A model generated the notes under the pieces. That model saw only the letters and a list, made by a program, of their open reading frames with translations. It was not told the DNA's origin and made no database searches. The position numbers were made by a program, and so were the translations under genes. Source: Sutcliffiella horikoshii (GTDB lineage Bacteria > Bacillota > Bacilli > Bacillales > Bacillaceae_I). From it: a stretch of 64,000 bases of DNA. The stretch lies in the NCBI RefSeq assembly GCF_002157855.1, contig NZ_CP020880.1:2790001-2854000 (forward strand), read 5' to 3'. Positions 4,260-34,615 of this stretch are shown here, one piece after another; within the stretch, counting starts at the first letter, position 1; the number at the start of each line of letters is the position of its first letter.

Positions 4260-4545
4260 AAGGAATAAAAAAAACGCCCTTTTGGATTAACCAAAAGGAC
4301 GATTTATCTCGTGTTACCACCTTTAATTCATAAGCAATTCACATTGCCTACCTTTGAAAGTACAGTCATATGACGATACTCTAGCACATGATTACGGGTG
4401 CTTCACCGGTGTAGCCTACTCAAGTCTTCACCTTTTCGGTACACAGCTCCAAGACGTATTCACAATCGTTCAACATGCACCTCTCATCAGCCGGTAACTT
4501 TCTGTCTGTTTACGTGATTGCTACTCTTTCTTATCATAGCCTTTG
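4260..4545 (-). promoter_or_regulatory. tyrosine T-box riboswitch leader of tyrS
   Basis: On the minus strand the leader has a T-box core (AAAGGTGGTAACACG, about 4308-4325) followed by an intrinsic terminator (CCTTTTGG / CCAAAAGG with a run of U, about 4267-4302). The upstream part contains a stem-I-like region with a GAATACG segment whose UAC (4456-4458) can serve as the tyrosine specifier codon. Uncharged tRNA-Tyr would stabilise the antiterminator and turn on tyrS. The match of specifier to downstream gene makes this call firm. Confidence 0.93.
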
Positions 4546-4632
4546 TTCTTATACTCCGAAATGTTTATAACAAATCTTCGTTATGCAGATATTAAGTGTT
4601 ATTTTATCTATTTCATTTCAAATGTCAATAGT

Positions 4633-5634
4633 TTATTTTTGCTTATAATACGTAATTCCCAATGCAAAGGCAAGCACAAGGCCTTTGACGATATCCATTG
4701 CATAATAAGGAACGGACATCATGACAAGACCGTTTTGTAGAATTCCGATTAGTACCGCTCCTATAAATGTACCGAATGCGTTAGGTTTGCCTGCTCCAAG
4801 GACGGCAAATCCAATAAATGCAGCCGCTACAGAATCCATTAAGTAAGGAGTGCCGGCATTGATTTCCGCTGTCATGATCCTCGAAGCAAGCACCATCCCT
4901 CCAATTGCAGCCAATAAGGCGGAAAATAAATAAGCTGCTACTTTGTATTTGTTCACAGCTATTCCCGAAAGCTTGGCCGCTTCTGCATTTCCACCGATGA
5001 TGTACATGAATCTTCCGTGCTTGGTGTAAGTGAGGAAAATATGTACTACCACTACAATCGTTAGCATGATGACGATAATCCATGGAACCTGTCCAAATTT
5101 CTGAAATAGCGGGCTGATGGTTCCCGTTGCAAACGTTCCGTCAGACATGACCATATTTTGCGAAATTGTAGAGCCTTTCGTATAAGTCAGGGCAATTCCC
5201 TGGATGATAAACATGGTCGCAAGGGTCATCAGCATATCAGGGATTTTTAATTTTACAATCATAAAAGAGTTGAAGGCACCAACTAACAGTGCTGCTGCAA
5301 TTGCTGAAAAAATCGCCATTGCGGTATTTTGTGAAAACCAGACAAACATGGAGATGACAATCGCATTGGATAAAGATGCAACAGACCCGACAGATAAATC
5401 GAAGCCGTTAACAGTCAGGGAAATGGTGATACCGATTGCGATAATCGTTACGATCGATATGGACCTTAAAATATTGATGACATTATTGGATTGGATGAAT
5501 GCTGGATTCGCTAGGGCAAACACGGCAATCAATACAAAAATGGTAATGATCGTACCGTATTTATATAAGAAGTCGAACAGTTCAAAGCGGAAAGCCGGTT
5601 TTACGTTCTCCTGTACTGGTATGTCAGTTTTCAT
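4633..5634 (-). CDS. sugar ABC transporter permease (RbsC family)
   Basis: 333-residue polytopic membrane protein of the BPD_transp_2/RbsC type, with about eight to ten hydrophobic segments and the family signatures NGFDLSVGSVASL (near residue 80) and VAAAFIGFAVLGAG (near 270). It is the last gene of a three-gene minus-strand operon (binding protein, ATPase, permease), starting one base after the ATPase gene. Substrate class is a pentose or pentose-like molecule by family; the SAM riboswitch upstream argues for a sulphur-containing ribose derivative such as methylthioribose rather than ribose. That last step is inference. Confidence 0.88.
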   Translation of the reverse strand: MKTDIPVQENVKPAFRFELFDFLYKYGTIITIFVLIAVFALANPAFIQSNNVINILRSISIVTIIAIGITISLTVNGFDLSVGSVASLSNAIVISMFVWFSQNTAMAIFSAIAAALLVGAFNSFMIVKLKIPDMLMTLATMFIIQGIALTYTKGSTISQNMVMSDGTFATGTISPLFQKFGQVPWIIVIMLTIVVVVHIFLTYTKHGRFMYIIGGNAEAAKLSGIAVNKYKVAAYLFSALLAAIGGMVLASRIMTAEINAGTPYLMDSVAAAFIGFAVLGAGKPNAFGTFIGAVLIGILQNGLVMMSVPYYAMDIVKGLVLAFALGITYYKQK

Positions 5635-8399: not shown

Positions 8400-8530
8400 A
8401 AAAAGACTTGTCCCTCTCTTATCTTTCAAAACATCACTGTTTTGCAGGATTTAGCACCAATTCCAAACGGAACGGTTGCTGGGCGTCATAGGGCCAGTCC
8501 CTCTGCCACTCTTGATAAGAGATCGAAATA
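8400..8530 (-). promoter_or_regulatory. SAM-I (S-box) riboswitch
   Basis: The minus strand reads as a canonical S-box: 5' arm CTCTTATCAAGAGTGGC, then AGAGGGACTGGCCC, ACGCCCAGCAACC, GGTGCTAAATCCTGCA and the closing 3' arm GATAAGAGAG. All conserved blocks of the SAM-I aptamer are present in order. It precedes an RbsABC-type transporter operon, an uncommon client for this riboswitch. Confidence 0.95.
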
Positions 8531-25023: not shown

Positions 25024-26793
25024 TTATAATCCGCACTTAAGTTGCGCACCGCAATCTGTGCAAGTATTGCATCCGCCGATTTCTTTAACCGTACCAATAC
25101 GGCATACTGGGCAGGTGTTCCCTACTTCTGATCCGTATTGAACATTGGTCGAGCGTAAATCATTAATTGTTTCAACGAGGACGACCGGCTTTTTTACCAC
25201 ATCTTCCATTTGAATCTGTTCGCCTTCATCCATCGTGTTCTCTTCTGCTTTTAGCGTCAGTACCTGGGAGTCACGGCTTCCATCCACATAAACGGTACCG
25301 CCTTTTGCTCCACCTTTATAGAGGCGTTCGTATACTTTCTTCACTTGATCAACCGTATATCCTTTCGGTGCGTTTACCGTTTTGGAAATGGAACTGTCAA
25401 TCCAGTTTTGGATAATACATTGAACATCAGCATGCGCTTGTGGAGCGAGTTCCATTGCAGAGATGAACCAGTTTGGCAGGTTCTCTGCATCTGCTTCTGG
25501 GTTCGCATCCAAGTACTCTTGTACGATGTCAGCCTTTACCTCAATGAACTTCCCTAGACGTCCACTGCGGAAGTAAGAGAAGGAGAAGTATGGCTCAAGT
25601 CCTGTAGATACCCCTACCATTGTTCCTGTAGATCCAGTTGGAGCTACTGTTAACAAGTGAGAGTTACGGATACCTGAGGATAGAATTCCTTCTTTAATAT
25701 CTTCCGGCATCTTGCTCATGAAGCCTGTTTTCGTAAATGCGTCACGAAGACGATTCGTTTCTTCTTCTGTGGCACCTTCTAAGAACGGGAAGCTTCCTTT
25801 TTCTTTTCCAAGTTCTACAGAAGCACGATATGCAGTAACCGCAATCGTTTCAAATACTTTATCTACAAGCTCATTGCCTTTTTCAGAGCCGTATTCTGTT
25901 TCACAATAGATTAATAGGTCGTGAAGGCCCATTACTCCTAAACCAACACGGCGCTCACCTAATGCCTGTTTTTTATTTTCTTCTAAGAAGTAAGGTGTCG
26001 CGTCGATAACGTTATCTTGCATTCTAACGCCGACTTCTACTGTTTGTTTCAGCTTTTCGAAGTTTACTGTTTTCGTTTCCTTGTCCGCAAATTGAGCAAG
26101 GTTTACTGCTGCCAAGTTACAGACAGAAAATGGTGCGAGGGGTTGTTCCCCACATGGGTTGGTTGCTACAACCTTTTGTCCGTATGCTTTTGCATTTGTC
26201 ATATCGTTAGCATTGTCGATAAAGAAGATTCCAGGCTCAGCTGAGTATGTTGCACAAATATTGACCAGGTTCCAAAGTTCTTTCGCCTTAATCTTTCTGT
26301 ACACTCTCACTTTGTGACCAAGTTTCTCCCACTCTCGTACGTCTCCAACTTCTGACCATTGTTCATTATAGATAGCCATTTCGTCTTTATCGTATGCTTC
26401 CACATCAGGGAAACGAAGATCAAAGTCAGCGTCGTTTTCAACAGCTTCCATAAACTCTTTTGTGAGGGTAATGGAAATGTTGGCTCCTGTAAGGAACTCT
26501 GAGTTATGAACTGTATAGGTTCCGCCAACTTTCAATTTCTGCTCTGCATCTTTGATGATTGCTTCTGTAAATCCGCCATATCCAGGGATGTGCTTGAAGT
26601 TTGTCACAGATTGATACATTGTAATTTCTTGATCTGTTAACGGGGTGAACTTCAGCTTATCTTCAGCTGCTTTTTTAATGCTTTCATCGTTTGTATTTTC
26701 AATTAGGTAGCGTAGAATTCTCGGGTTTTGCATTTTGGAGATGATAAATTCAACGATATCTGGGTGCCAGTCTGCTAGCATAATCATTTGAGC
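25024..26793 (-). CDS. nrdJ: class II (B12-dependent) ribonucleotide reductase NrdJ, exon 2
   Basis: The C-terminal 589 residues of an adenosylcobalamin-dependent ribonucleotide reductase, which makes deoxyribonucleotides without oxygen dependence. Visible are NPCGEQ with the radical Cys and Glu of the active site, VCNLAAVNLAQF with the second redox Cys, GLGVMGLHDLL, the PTGSTGTMVGVSTGLEP substrate loop, and a C-terminal cluster CPVC...CNTC...C...C for thioredoxin-coupled re-reduction. It begins GCT CAA ATG, directly continuing exon 1 (GGSRRG|AQMIMLADW). A separate ATG three bases upstream, inside the intron, is only an apparent start. Spliced length is 855 residues. Confidence 0.93.
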   Translation of the reverse strand, partial: AQMIMLADWHPDIVEFIISKMQNPRILRYLIENTNDESIKKAAEDKLKFTPLTDQEITMYQSVTNFKHIPGYGGFTEAIIKDAEQKLKVGGTYTVHNSEFLTGANISITLTKEFMEAVENDADFDLRFPDVEAYDKDEMAIYNEQWSEVGDVREWEKLGHKVRVYRKIKAKELWNLVNICATYSAEPGIFFIDNANDMTNAKAYGQKVVATNPCGEQPLAPFSVCNLAAVNLAQFADKETKTVNFEKLKQTVEVGVRMQDNVIDATPYFLEENKKQALGERRVGLGVMGLHDLLIYCETEYGSEKGNELVDKVFETIAVTAYRASVELGKEKGSFPFLEGATEEETNRLRDAFTKTGFMSKMPEDIKEGILSSGIRNSHLLTVAPTGSTGTMVGVSTGLEPYFSFSYFRSGRLGKFIEVKADIVQEYLDANPEADAENLPNWFISAMELAPQAHADVQCIIQNWIDSSISKTVNAPKGYTVDQVKKVYERLYKGGAKGGTVYVDGSRDSQVLTLKAEENTMDEGEQIQMEDVVKKPVVLVETINDLRSTNVQYGSEVGNTCPVCRIGTVKEIGGCNTCTDCGAQLKCGL

Positions 26794-27113
26794 CATTTCG
26801 TTACGCCGATTCGCTTAATCGACTCTCTATGTCACCATAGAGTTCAGACCATATCTTACACTTTTTAAAGTGTCCTCGCACTTCGGATTCGCTTGAATCC
26901 TACTCTACTCACTTCTGCCATACTTCGGCATGTTTTCGATGGTCGTTGAACCTTCACCATTTCACAGGTGCTTGGCTGCTGATTATCTTTGACCGCTTGT
27001 TGTTTTTAGGCATTCACGCTCACCGTTTCCAGTCACGTTGTAGCCAACAAGTCATAAAAGACTTTCCAGCAATTCACGAGGTTTGTTTATAGACGAGGCA
27101 CTTAAGCTGATTT
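26794..27113 (-). ncRNA. group I self-splicing intron in nrdJ
   Basis: A 320-nt insert that splits nrdJ exactly inside the conserved SRRG-A site, keeps the frame when removed, and has group I core elements in order: P (AATTGCTGGAAAG), Q (AATCAGCAGCC), R (TTCAACGACCATC) and S (AGATATGGTCTGAAC). P7 is perfect (GACCAU with AUGGUC). The 5' exon end GACGUGGU pairs with the internal guide GCCUCGUC (27092-27099), leaving the required U-G pair at the splice site. The intron ends in G. There is no homing-endonuclease ORF inside. Confidence 0.93.
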
Positions 27114-27911
27114 ACCACGTCTTGATCCACCTTGTTCCACAAGATGCGTCAATTTTGCAATGTCATCCAACCAGGAAACACTACCAGAGGATTTACCGTT
27201 AACCCCTCTTGCAAGCGCGTTTCGTGGGCGAAGCGTTGATCCGTTTGTACCAACTCCGCCTCCGCGGCTCATGATTTCCATTACTTGTTTACGGTGTTCC
27301 GAAATTCCTTCACGGGAATCTTGTACGAATGGCATTACGTAACAGTTAAAGTAGGTTACATCAGTGTCTGCACCAGCTCCGTATAACACACGTCCTGCAG
27401 GTACAAAATTCATGTTAACTAGTTCATGATAGAACTTTTCAAACCATTCCTGGCGCTTCTCTTCTGTCGTTTCTACTGCTGCCAAGCCTTTTGCGTTACG
27501 TTTGGCAATCTGCTCGTAGAAGACTTCTAGAGGCTTCTCAATTACATCCAGGGATCGAACGACAACGCCCGTTTCGGCTTCACCTAGCTTTGTCAACACT
27601 CCACGATACTCTTCTTCAATTAGTACAGAAGCCTTCTTGGTAGACCAGTCTATGTCTTGTATGAAACCAAGACCTCTTGCAGGGAATTTAGGATCTTCTT
27701 TTATCGTTAATACAACAAAATCTCCAGCTGTAAGGGTTACTTTCTCTGTATCTTTAAATGCGTAACGATCGAGCATGACCAGGCGGGAAACACCTTTATG
27801 TGTAGTGGTCATGTCCTCTGTAATGGGGTGTACTTGAGGAAACAAGCCGATGTCCTTGTTCAAGCGTTCTACATTGATTTTCAATTTGGATTCATTAATT
27901 GCGATCGTCAT
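27114..27911 (-). CDS. nrdJ: class II ribonucleotide reductase NrdJ, exon 1
   Basis: The N-terminal 266 residues of NrdJ, ending ...VEQGGSRRG at the intron. It includes the first active-site Cys in TYFNCYVMPF and the GGGVGTNGSTLRPRN segment. If the intron were not spliced, translation would read only three more residues (KSA) and stop, giving an inactive fragment, so activity depends on splicing. ATG at 27911 follows TAGAGGAGTTGTAATA. Two NrdR-like boxes lie about 95-140 bases upstream. Confidence 0.93.
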
Positions 27912-34379: not shown

Positions 34380-34432
34380 TCAAAAAAGGACAGAGAAACT
34401 CCTTTTTCAAAAAAGAGTTCTCTGTCCTTTGC
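34380..34432 (-). terminator. glycine-riboswitch-controlled terminator
   Basis: AAGGACAGAGAA and TTCTCTGTCCTT form a long stem (34387-34430) on the minus strand, then TTTTTTG. It overlaps the 3' end of the second aptamer, as expected for the expression platform. Confidence 0.88.
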
Positions 34433-34615
34433 ACCTGAAAGTTTACCTTATGTATAAGGCTTTCCCCTTTGGTGGTTTATTCTAAAATAAGAATAAACAC
34501 TCTCCAGAGTTGCGTCCAACAAGAGTCTTTTTGCCTGAGAGATTCACAGTCATTCTGCTTGCTCCTTCGGCGCTGCCGCATCTTTATGGGCAGTCTCTCC
34601 CCTTGTTCTCATTCG
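34420..34615 (-). promoter_or_regulatory. tandem glycine riboswitch of gcvT operon
   Basis: Two aptamers on the minus strand. The first (about 34514-34612) has GGGGAGAGACTG, GCGCCGAAGGAGCAA and AATCTCTCAGGCAAAAAGAC; the second (about 34420-34507) has TCTGGAGAGTG, CCACCAAAGGGG and ACTTTCAGGTGCAAAGGAC. This is the known cooperative gcvT architecture that turns on glycine cleavage when glycine is plentiful. The rest of the 563-bp gap holds the divergent yqhH promoter region. Confidence 0.95.

Follow-up and report, generated by a model that had tools for sequence, protein, structure and literature searches.

The window analyzed here, a 64,000-nt stretch of the Sutcliffiella horikoshii genome taken at its full length, carries on its minus strand the class II ribonucleotide reductase gene nrdJ, the reading frame of which is broken by 320 nt. 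In coordinates of the window, the locus consists of the following parts:

27114..27911, minus strand: nrdJ exon 1, 266 codons, ending in ...GGSRRG, its last base (U) pairing with G in P1; placed by translation and by positions 6-265 of the profile NF005991.
26794..27113, minus strand: group I intron, 320 nt, no ORF; placed by RF00028, by intronless alleles with a gap of 0, and by covariation.
25024..26793, minus strand: nrdJ exon 2, 589 codons plus stop, starting with AQMIMLADWHP; placed by translation and by positions 266-858 of NF005991.

The joined product has 266 + 589 = 855 residues, and on NF005991 (a B12-dependent reductase profile of 858 positions) the two exons follow each other with neither gap nor overlap. 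By the translations and this contiguity, the coordinates 26794-27113 and the 855-residue joined protein given in a preliminary description of this DNA are exact, the former to the base. The first in-frame stop of the intron is its fourth codon (27104-27102), and its longest sense-strand open stretch is 46 codons, in keeping with the earlier statement that it has no endonuclease. In two intronless S. horikoshii alleles (L027 and L034), residue 266 of exon 1 is directly followed by residue 1 of exon 2. The same gap-0 junction occurs in 6 of the 15 genomes of the genus that have nrdJ and, as an empty site, in 55 of the 80 named alleles (the best 80 of 584 nrdJ relatives). Within that best 80, the closest named relatives are S. 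horikoshii and its kin, some labelled Bacillus sp., with 98-99% identity over exon 2. The split at SRRG|A proposed in the preliminary description is therefore exactly the junction of the uninterrupted gene in close relatives, and the comparison with intronless alleles that it had suggested returned that junction with a gap of 0. These data confirm the identification of the 320-nt element as a group I intron interrupting nrdJ. The window also holds a T-box leader (4292-4546), a SAM riboswitch (8416-8521), and a tandem glycine riboswitch (34420-34612); an assumed NrdR-like pattern matched twice in the window, neither time upstream of nrdJ.

A cmscan search of the whole window, the covariance-model search also proposed earlier, returned RF00028 on the minus strand at 74.9 bits (gathering 50; E 3.5e-17; model positions 1-253). 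The match spans 26825-27153, beginning within exon 1 and stopping short of the splice site, and it covers the P3-P8 core. The minimum free energy of the intron RNA has a z score of -3.06. The elements of the fold are as follows:

27076..27081, minus strand: P3 5' strand, partner 26874-26879; 6 pairs, 100% of cells paired, nearly invariant.
27066..27071, minus strand: P4 5' strand (P element), partner 26977-26982 (Q element); from the structure alignment and the Rfam alignment.
26986..27061, minus strand: P5 and extended P5 domain with a GAAA-capped hairpin; in relatives, the loop holds an endonuclease gene.
26950..26976, minus strand: P6/P6a; 2 of 4 P6a pairs changed on both sides.
26939..26944, minus strand: P7 5' strand (R element), partner 26847-26852 (S element).
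26885..26933, minus strand: P7.1 and P7.2 hairpins; 10 of 12 pairs changed on both sides.
26858..26873, minus strand: P8 hairpin; 5 of 6 pairs changed on both sides.
26805..26842, minus strand: P9, with a GUGA loop, and P9.1, two hairpins preceding the terminal G (26794); both-sided changes in 1 of 7 P9 and 5 of 6 P9.1 pairs.

For the comparison of this fold, we collected 66 loci (many fetched twice) in which, within one locus, the exon 1 match ends precisely at residue 266 and the exon 2 match begins at residue 1, a position hereafter called site 1; they hold 41 distinct introns, and L095, L111, L151, L160, L161, and L162 fall outside this filter. The covariation alignment comprised 23 of the 41 (the window and 22 relatives of at most 470 nt), with longer introns and L140, which looks like another lineage, left out. 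Across the 23 sequences, 98.2% of the cells of the 83-pair structure are paired. Changes on both sides affected 32 pairs and 139 cells, against shuffled means of 16.2 and 36.9, and the observed values were reached in 0 of 500 shuffles. Sliding the partners by 1-3 columns lowered pairing to 33.7-40.8%, a control that favors the structure because the structure was drawn on the window from these same sequences. Most of the covariation support lies in P5a-P5d, P6a, P7.1, P7.2, P8, and P9.1; P3, P4, and P7 are nearly invariant in the sample and thus uninformative in this respect. The perfect P7 described earlier (GACCAU/AUGGUC) is present as stated. From its P7.1 and P7.2 hairpins, which we take to be marks of subgroup IA, the intron probably belongs to that subgroup.

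The pairings at the splice sites involve three short segments:

27114..27121, minus strand: P1 5' strand, exon GACGUGGU, with a U-G pair at the splice site and an internal U-U mismatch.
27092..27099, minus strand: internal guide sequence GCCUCGUC (P1 3' strand).
27100..27102, minus strand: P10 strand (A-G-U) pairing with bases 1-3 of exon 2 (26793-26791).

The P1 of the preliminary description stands as far as the U-G pair at the splice site is concerned, which is present in 23 of 23 sequences, but the internal U-U mismatch, unpaired in 22 of the 23, had been overlooked. The glycine codon before the intron is GGT in all 41 distinct site-1 introns. In the named set, it is GGT in 15/15 alleles with a single insert at site 1 versus 18/55 intronless alleles; with the two-insert allele L095 added, the counts become 16/16 versus 18/55 (Fisher p 7e-7, relatedness ignored). 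Where another arginine codon is used, exon and guide have changed together, to GACGCGGT and GCTGCGTC in L088 and to GCAGAGGT and GCCTCTT in L114. The six-position P10 proposed earlier (GCUCAA with UUAAGU) fared less well: its first three positions are borne out, but it contains a C-A mismatch and its fourth position pairs no better than shuffled sequences. Counted over positions 1-4 of those six, position 1 makes a standard pair with the base adjoining the guide in 41/41 introns (G-U in 40), position 2 a standard pair in 40/41, and the synonymous position 3 is paired in 31/41 against 18.5 by shuffling (p 5e-5, relatedness ignored), while position 4 is paired in 11/41. The intron ends in G in the window and in 39 of the 41 distinct site-1 introns; L116 and L165 end in A.

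We propose that the group I ribozyme would excise itself from the nrdJ pre-mRNA and join exons 1 and 2, giving the 855-residue B12-dependent reductase, and that the 320-nt intron belongs to a homing-intron lineage of this Bacillales nrdJ site, of which it is a form without endonuclease. In fuller relatives, the P5 loop holds an endonuclease gene of the Vsr/DUF559-like (EDxHD-type) kind; the window's lineage would have lost its endonuclease and now persist by inheritance. This explanation as a whole, a self-splicing group I intron of nrdJ that descends without its endonuclease from the site's homing lineage, appears highly probable to us, and splicing in cells is very likely, judging from sequence comparison. 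The grounds read directly are the sequence family, the conserved folding with compensatory changes, the exon-guide pairing, and the intronless alleles with the exact junction; for the homing lineage, they are the occurrence of forms with an endonuclease, with a decayed one, and with no ORF at a single site, and the disagreement between intron and exon trees. Unspliced RNA stops four codons into the intron, so splicing would be needed for NrdJ; an in-frame stop lies among the first 12 codons in 41 of the 41 distinct site-1 introns. Could the two frames instead be translated without splicing, as two polypeptides that assemble in the manner of the split NrdJ of Pseudomonas aeruginosa or the genes-in-pieces NrdA? 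Split class II reductases are known (PMC4520616; PMC3653736), the frame of exon 2 has an ATG that overlaps the last bases of the intron, and the ORF list gives frames of 269 and 590 aa. However, two separate polypeptides would leave the ribozyme fold and its covariation, the co-changes of exon and guide, and the exact junction of intronless relatives all unexplained, and the last bases of the intron vary among relatives; we regard this alternative as very improbable.

Besides nrdJ, the window's genome encodes a class I reductase, recognized from a small-subunit match adjoining a large-subunit frame; NrdJ is therefore not the sole ribonucleotide reductase of this genome. This bears on two further readings of the locus: (i) nrdJ could be redundant and dying, with the intron an inert remnant in a pseudogene, as the presence of the class I enzyme would allow. 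Against this, the exon frames are open, protein identity is 98-99% among the alleles of the S. horikoshii group and 94% in G011, and the ribozyme structure has been kept with compensatory changes, which makes a pseudogene the least probable of the alternatives weighed here. (ii) The intron could be an active regulator, its conditional splicing (for example, with temperature or GTP) gating NrdJ and dNTP supply. The stop just inside the intron ties NrdJ to splicing, and flagellin introns of thermophilic bacilli splice in a temperature-dependent manner according to parts of PMC4853749; nevertheless, the same genome has a class I reductase, and the absence of the intron from 6 of the 15 genomes of the genus with nrdJ argues against a general need; such gating is a conjecture that we consider improbable.

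All 16 genomes of the genus have a reductase match and 15 have nrdJ, G001 (80% complete) showing only a class I-like match. Eight of the 15 carry an insert at this site, one carries an insert two codons upstream (G002), and six have none. A 39-base pattern covering the guide and P3-P4, with at most 3 mismatches allowed, matched 33 of 397 genomes in the order, and the reversed control pattern matched none. For 30 of the 33 pattern places, loci were given, with nrdJ exon 1 beside the pattern in 30/30 and exon 2 as well in 27; the remaining three genomes (G048, G326, and G299) have endonuclease loci in nrdJ (L117, L108, and L109). The 41 distinct site-1 introns fall into three length classes, 309-352 nt (20 introns), 411-682 nt (7), and 1183-1953 nt (14), with longest sense open stretches of 30-60, 30-74, and 170-361 codons, respectively. 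The longest of them, the 1953-nt intron of L116 (G080), exceeds the other endonuclease-bearing ones by about 700 nt. Three site-1 inserts (L138, L139, and L140) have a ribozyme unlike that of the window's lineage, with L140 59% identical to the window and open stretches of 334 and 361 codons in L138 and L139. They look like another intron lineage, so site 1 would have been invaded more than once.

The window copy encodes no homing endonuclease in cis. Among its site-1 relatives, the endonuclease of L009 and L041 matches PF04480 (DUF559) above the cut-off and Vsr below it. A profile of the relatives' endonuclease matched 3hrl (E 6.4e-4), 3r3p, entitled "Mobile intron protein" (E 7.7e-4), and the Vsr structure 1cw0 (E 0.05), and a single-sequence phmmer search of one site-1 endonuclease against PDB found nothing. 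By these profile matches, the ORF has a Vsr-like nuclease domain, as in EDxHD homing endonucleases. Since we take 3r3p to be I-Bth0305I, the relatives' ORF resembles that and other EDxHD systems through its 3r3p and PF04480 matches, with the differences that the relatives' endonucleases have N-terminal Cys pairs and that the window intron lost, or never had, an endonuclease. A DUF559 gene assigned to EDxHD, together with nrdJ and other inteins, appears for Thermosynechococcus in part of PMC9403480.

At E<=1e-3, the site-1 endonuclease matches 29 of the 397 genomes of the order. Strong matches (E<1e-20) were found in 13; both nrdJ exons sit at the positions of site 1 in 12 of these loci, and L111 has exon 1 only; several of these 13 copies are broken by stops or in pieces. 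The other 16 genomes (L121-L136) gave weak matches at loci without an nrdJ exon, and the window's own genome has no relative of the site-1 endonuclease at E<=1e-3. The closest endonuclease-bearing relative is G003/L009, with a ribozyme 98% identical to the window's; its 288-codon endonuclease frame lacks the expected start in frame and looks frameshifted near the N terminus. In G011, the endonuclease has decayed into two fragments. A single endonuclease family occupies the same loop in many genera, and decayed intermediates exist, which suggests that the gene has been lost repeatedly. For the window copy, the best reading is a descendant that lacks the endonuclease, its former possession of the gene being presumed from these relatives.

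The preliminary description had left the intron as either a stable relic or an element mobilized in trans. That choice can be narrowed, in that same-site relatives have an intact or decayed endonuclease gene but the window's genome has no such relative. Mobility of an ORF-less intron through an endonuclease acting in trans, i.e., collaborative homing, is known from passages of PMC3984707; the site-1 endonuclease gene, intact or decayed, lies within nrdJ in 13 of the 397 genomes, a relative of it occurs in a phage contig, and endonuclease-bearing and ORF-less lengths both occur in the genus. However, given the lack of a relative at E<=1e-3 in the window's genome, and with the genus copies of G003 apparently frameshifted and of G011 decayed, continued homing of the window intron in this way seems rather unlikely. 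Two other ideas were rejected. The P5 loop spells the last codons of G003's endonuclease and could have been its fossil, yet the same stretch occurs in the recA intron of phage Romulus, the endonuclease gene of which lies elsewhere, and it pairs with covariation, i.e., it belongs to the ribozyme. Reading the long G003 intron as an insertion sequence failed because its ORF is homologous to ORFs of other genera.

Trees built from 36 introns and from the corresponding 1050 exon columns disagree in the way expected of homing. The intron clade of L115, L041, L163, L120, and L142 (support 100/97) is rejected by the exon data (p-AU 1e-83). The window's own branch, Sutcliffiella plus L152 (98/97), is likewise rejected by the exon data (p-AU 0.013), and the exon clade of L115 and L166 (100/100) by the intron data (p-AU 0.005), although the clades for these AU tests were picked after viewing the trees, so that the smaller effects are soft. 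Many of the deeper branches of the intron tree lack resolution (17 of 33), and identity in the intron still correlates with identity in the exons (Spearman 0.48). Within the genus, the two trees agree broadly, which fits inheritance there. Overall, the comparison points to horizontal spread of the intron lineage independently of its host gene.

The site is not alone. In the named nrdJ set (the best 80 of 584 confirmed relatives, which is biased to close kin), 25 of the 80 alleles carry insertions and 55 none, and the insertions occupy four sites within 30 nt: site 1, SRRG|A, in 15 alleles plus L095 (16/80); site 2, SR|RG, in 5 alleles plus L089; site 3, SRR|G, in L084 only; and site 4, AQMIMLAD|W, in L046 and L101 plus L095 and L089. 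The two alleles with paired inserts are L095 (sites 1 and 4), with a 24-nt exon between them at 4620-4643, and L089 (sites 2 and 4), with a 30-nt exon at 4647-4676. Skipping of either short exon would preserve the frame. At the gathering threshold, Rfam recognizes a group I intron in 8 of the 10 site-2, -3, and -4 loci given, with two in L089 and one (the second) in L095; it gave no call at that threshold for L033, L084, and the first L095 intron, all of which have a long ORF. With a laxer search, L033 showed two partial matches flanking its ORF (38.2 and 32.2 bits; gathering 50) and L084 none. Site 3 is therefore the weakest of the four, the identity of L084 resting on the common P3-P4 motif; its 304-codon frame resembles that of L033 by eye. 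The ORFs differ by site: DUF559/Vsr-like at site 1 (L009 and L041), LAGLIDADG at site 2 (L033) and in the first L095 intron, and HNH at site 4 (L046).

Mobile elements of phages and plasmids were compared with both the intron and the site-1 endonuclease. In 50,697 phage records, the intron matched 159, none over 80% of its length; every one of the 20 matches listed is a Staphylococcus phage, and two carry a recA annotation. Among the best-scoring of these records is the recA intron of Staphylococcus phage Romulus (L168), which, with its kin, is 86.9% identical to the window over 45% of the intron, including the P5 domain. It differs in its host gene (recA) and in the position of its annotated endonuclease gene, the start of which lies downstream of the P7 5' strand and not in P5, and the guide region falls outside the match. 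Three plasmid records match the intron, of which Priestia megaterium NZ_CP045273.1 849543-849824, with no gene annotated, covers 83% at 70.5% identity. The site-1 endonuclease matches 7 phage records, all at <60% identity. In IMG/VR, there are at least 80 endonuclease loci and 41 loci with the exact P3-P4 motif; among the loci compared, only L170 and L171 match nrdJ exon 2 (tblastn 1e-8), and none matches exon 1. The phage contig L170 is interrupted at NARKG|ALKIDLNDWHPDI, apparently the counterpart of site 1, and the insert includes an endonuclease sequence of 41% identity with an open frame of 259 codons. Searched alone against Rfam, this insert scored 46.2 bits (gathering 50; E 3.1e-10), and the large search at E<=0.01 gave no call. 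In L171, a 43%-identical endonuclease lies a few codons downstream of the site in a phage reductase, between the parts of an intein-like segment, which from its motifs may be an intein. A second intein-like segment is found further on in the same phage reductase (L171 3902-8551).

With four sites, three endonuclease families, intron pairs, a phage intron, and a phage intein-like segment, the 30 nt of nrdJ around SRRG|A may be a homing hotspot, with phage nrdJ genes shuttling introns into bacterial nrdJ and the window copy being one endonuclease-less survivor; we incline, by a little, to this view. Four sites within 30 nt bear on why mobile elements converge on the same codons. The homing cycle also becomes testable, since alleles with an endonuclease gene, with a decayed one, with no ORF, and with no insert coexist at a single site, in part inside a single genus.

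The closest counterparts known are introns of class I ribonucleotide reductase genes (nrdE and nrdF of Bacillus, SPbeta, and phage Twort) and of Bacillus recA. They too are group I introns that interrupt conserved genes of DNA metabolism in Firmicutes and their phages, and some encode a homing endonuclease, as set out in sections of PMC3984707 and PMC3653736; in contrast, the host gene here is the class II nrdJ. As bacterial protein-gene hosts, the review PMC3984707 gives flagellin, recA, and nrdE. The RNRdb paper, in excerpt, mentions >100 group I introns curated from reductase entries without giving their classes, and such nrdJ introns may therefore already be catalogued. Among the literature matches listed, some represented by extracts, we found no account of a bacterial nrdJ interrupted by a group I intron. 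The earlier remark that such introns are rarely described thus agrees with the literature found, but in nature they are not rare (16/80 alleles and 33/397 genomes). The intron is an ordinary kind of element, in a host gene for which no description was found and at an unusually crowded insertion hotspot. With it, the class II reductase joins the few bacterial protein genes known with group I introns. Gene-calling programs would divide a gene of this kind into two frames, which can make nrdJ look broken.

The window's genome has a second group I intron (L002; G000:C1:3753028-3753277), located in the flagellin gene hag at NAQDG|ISMIQ. It scored 57.9 bits in one search and was unlisted by cmscan; its core motifs and both exon ends can be seen in the sequence. 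The same host gene carries an intron in thermophilic bacilli, reported for Geobacillus in a portion of PMC3984707. This hag intron is a locus separate from nrdJ, and parts of its core are 70-85% identical to the nrdJ intron in relatives of the genus. Of 13 other partial-match loci of the genus that were checked, 12 hold flagellin start motifs. L011 1375-2175 and L016 1372-2165 each contain two successive group I introns in roughly 0.8 kb, and flagellin motifs are present in L016 and in L020, which overlaps L011.
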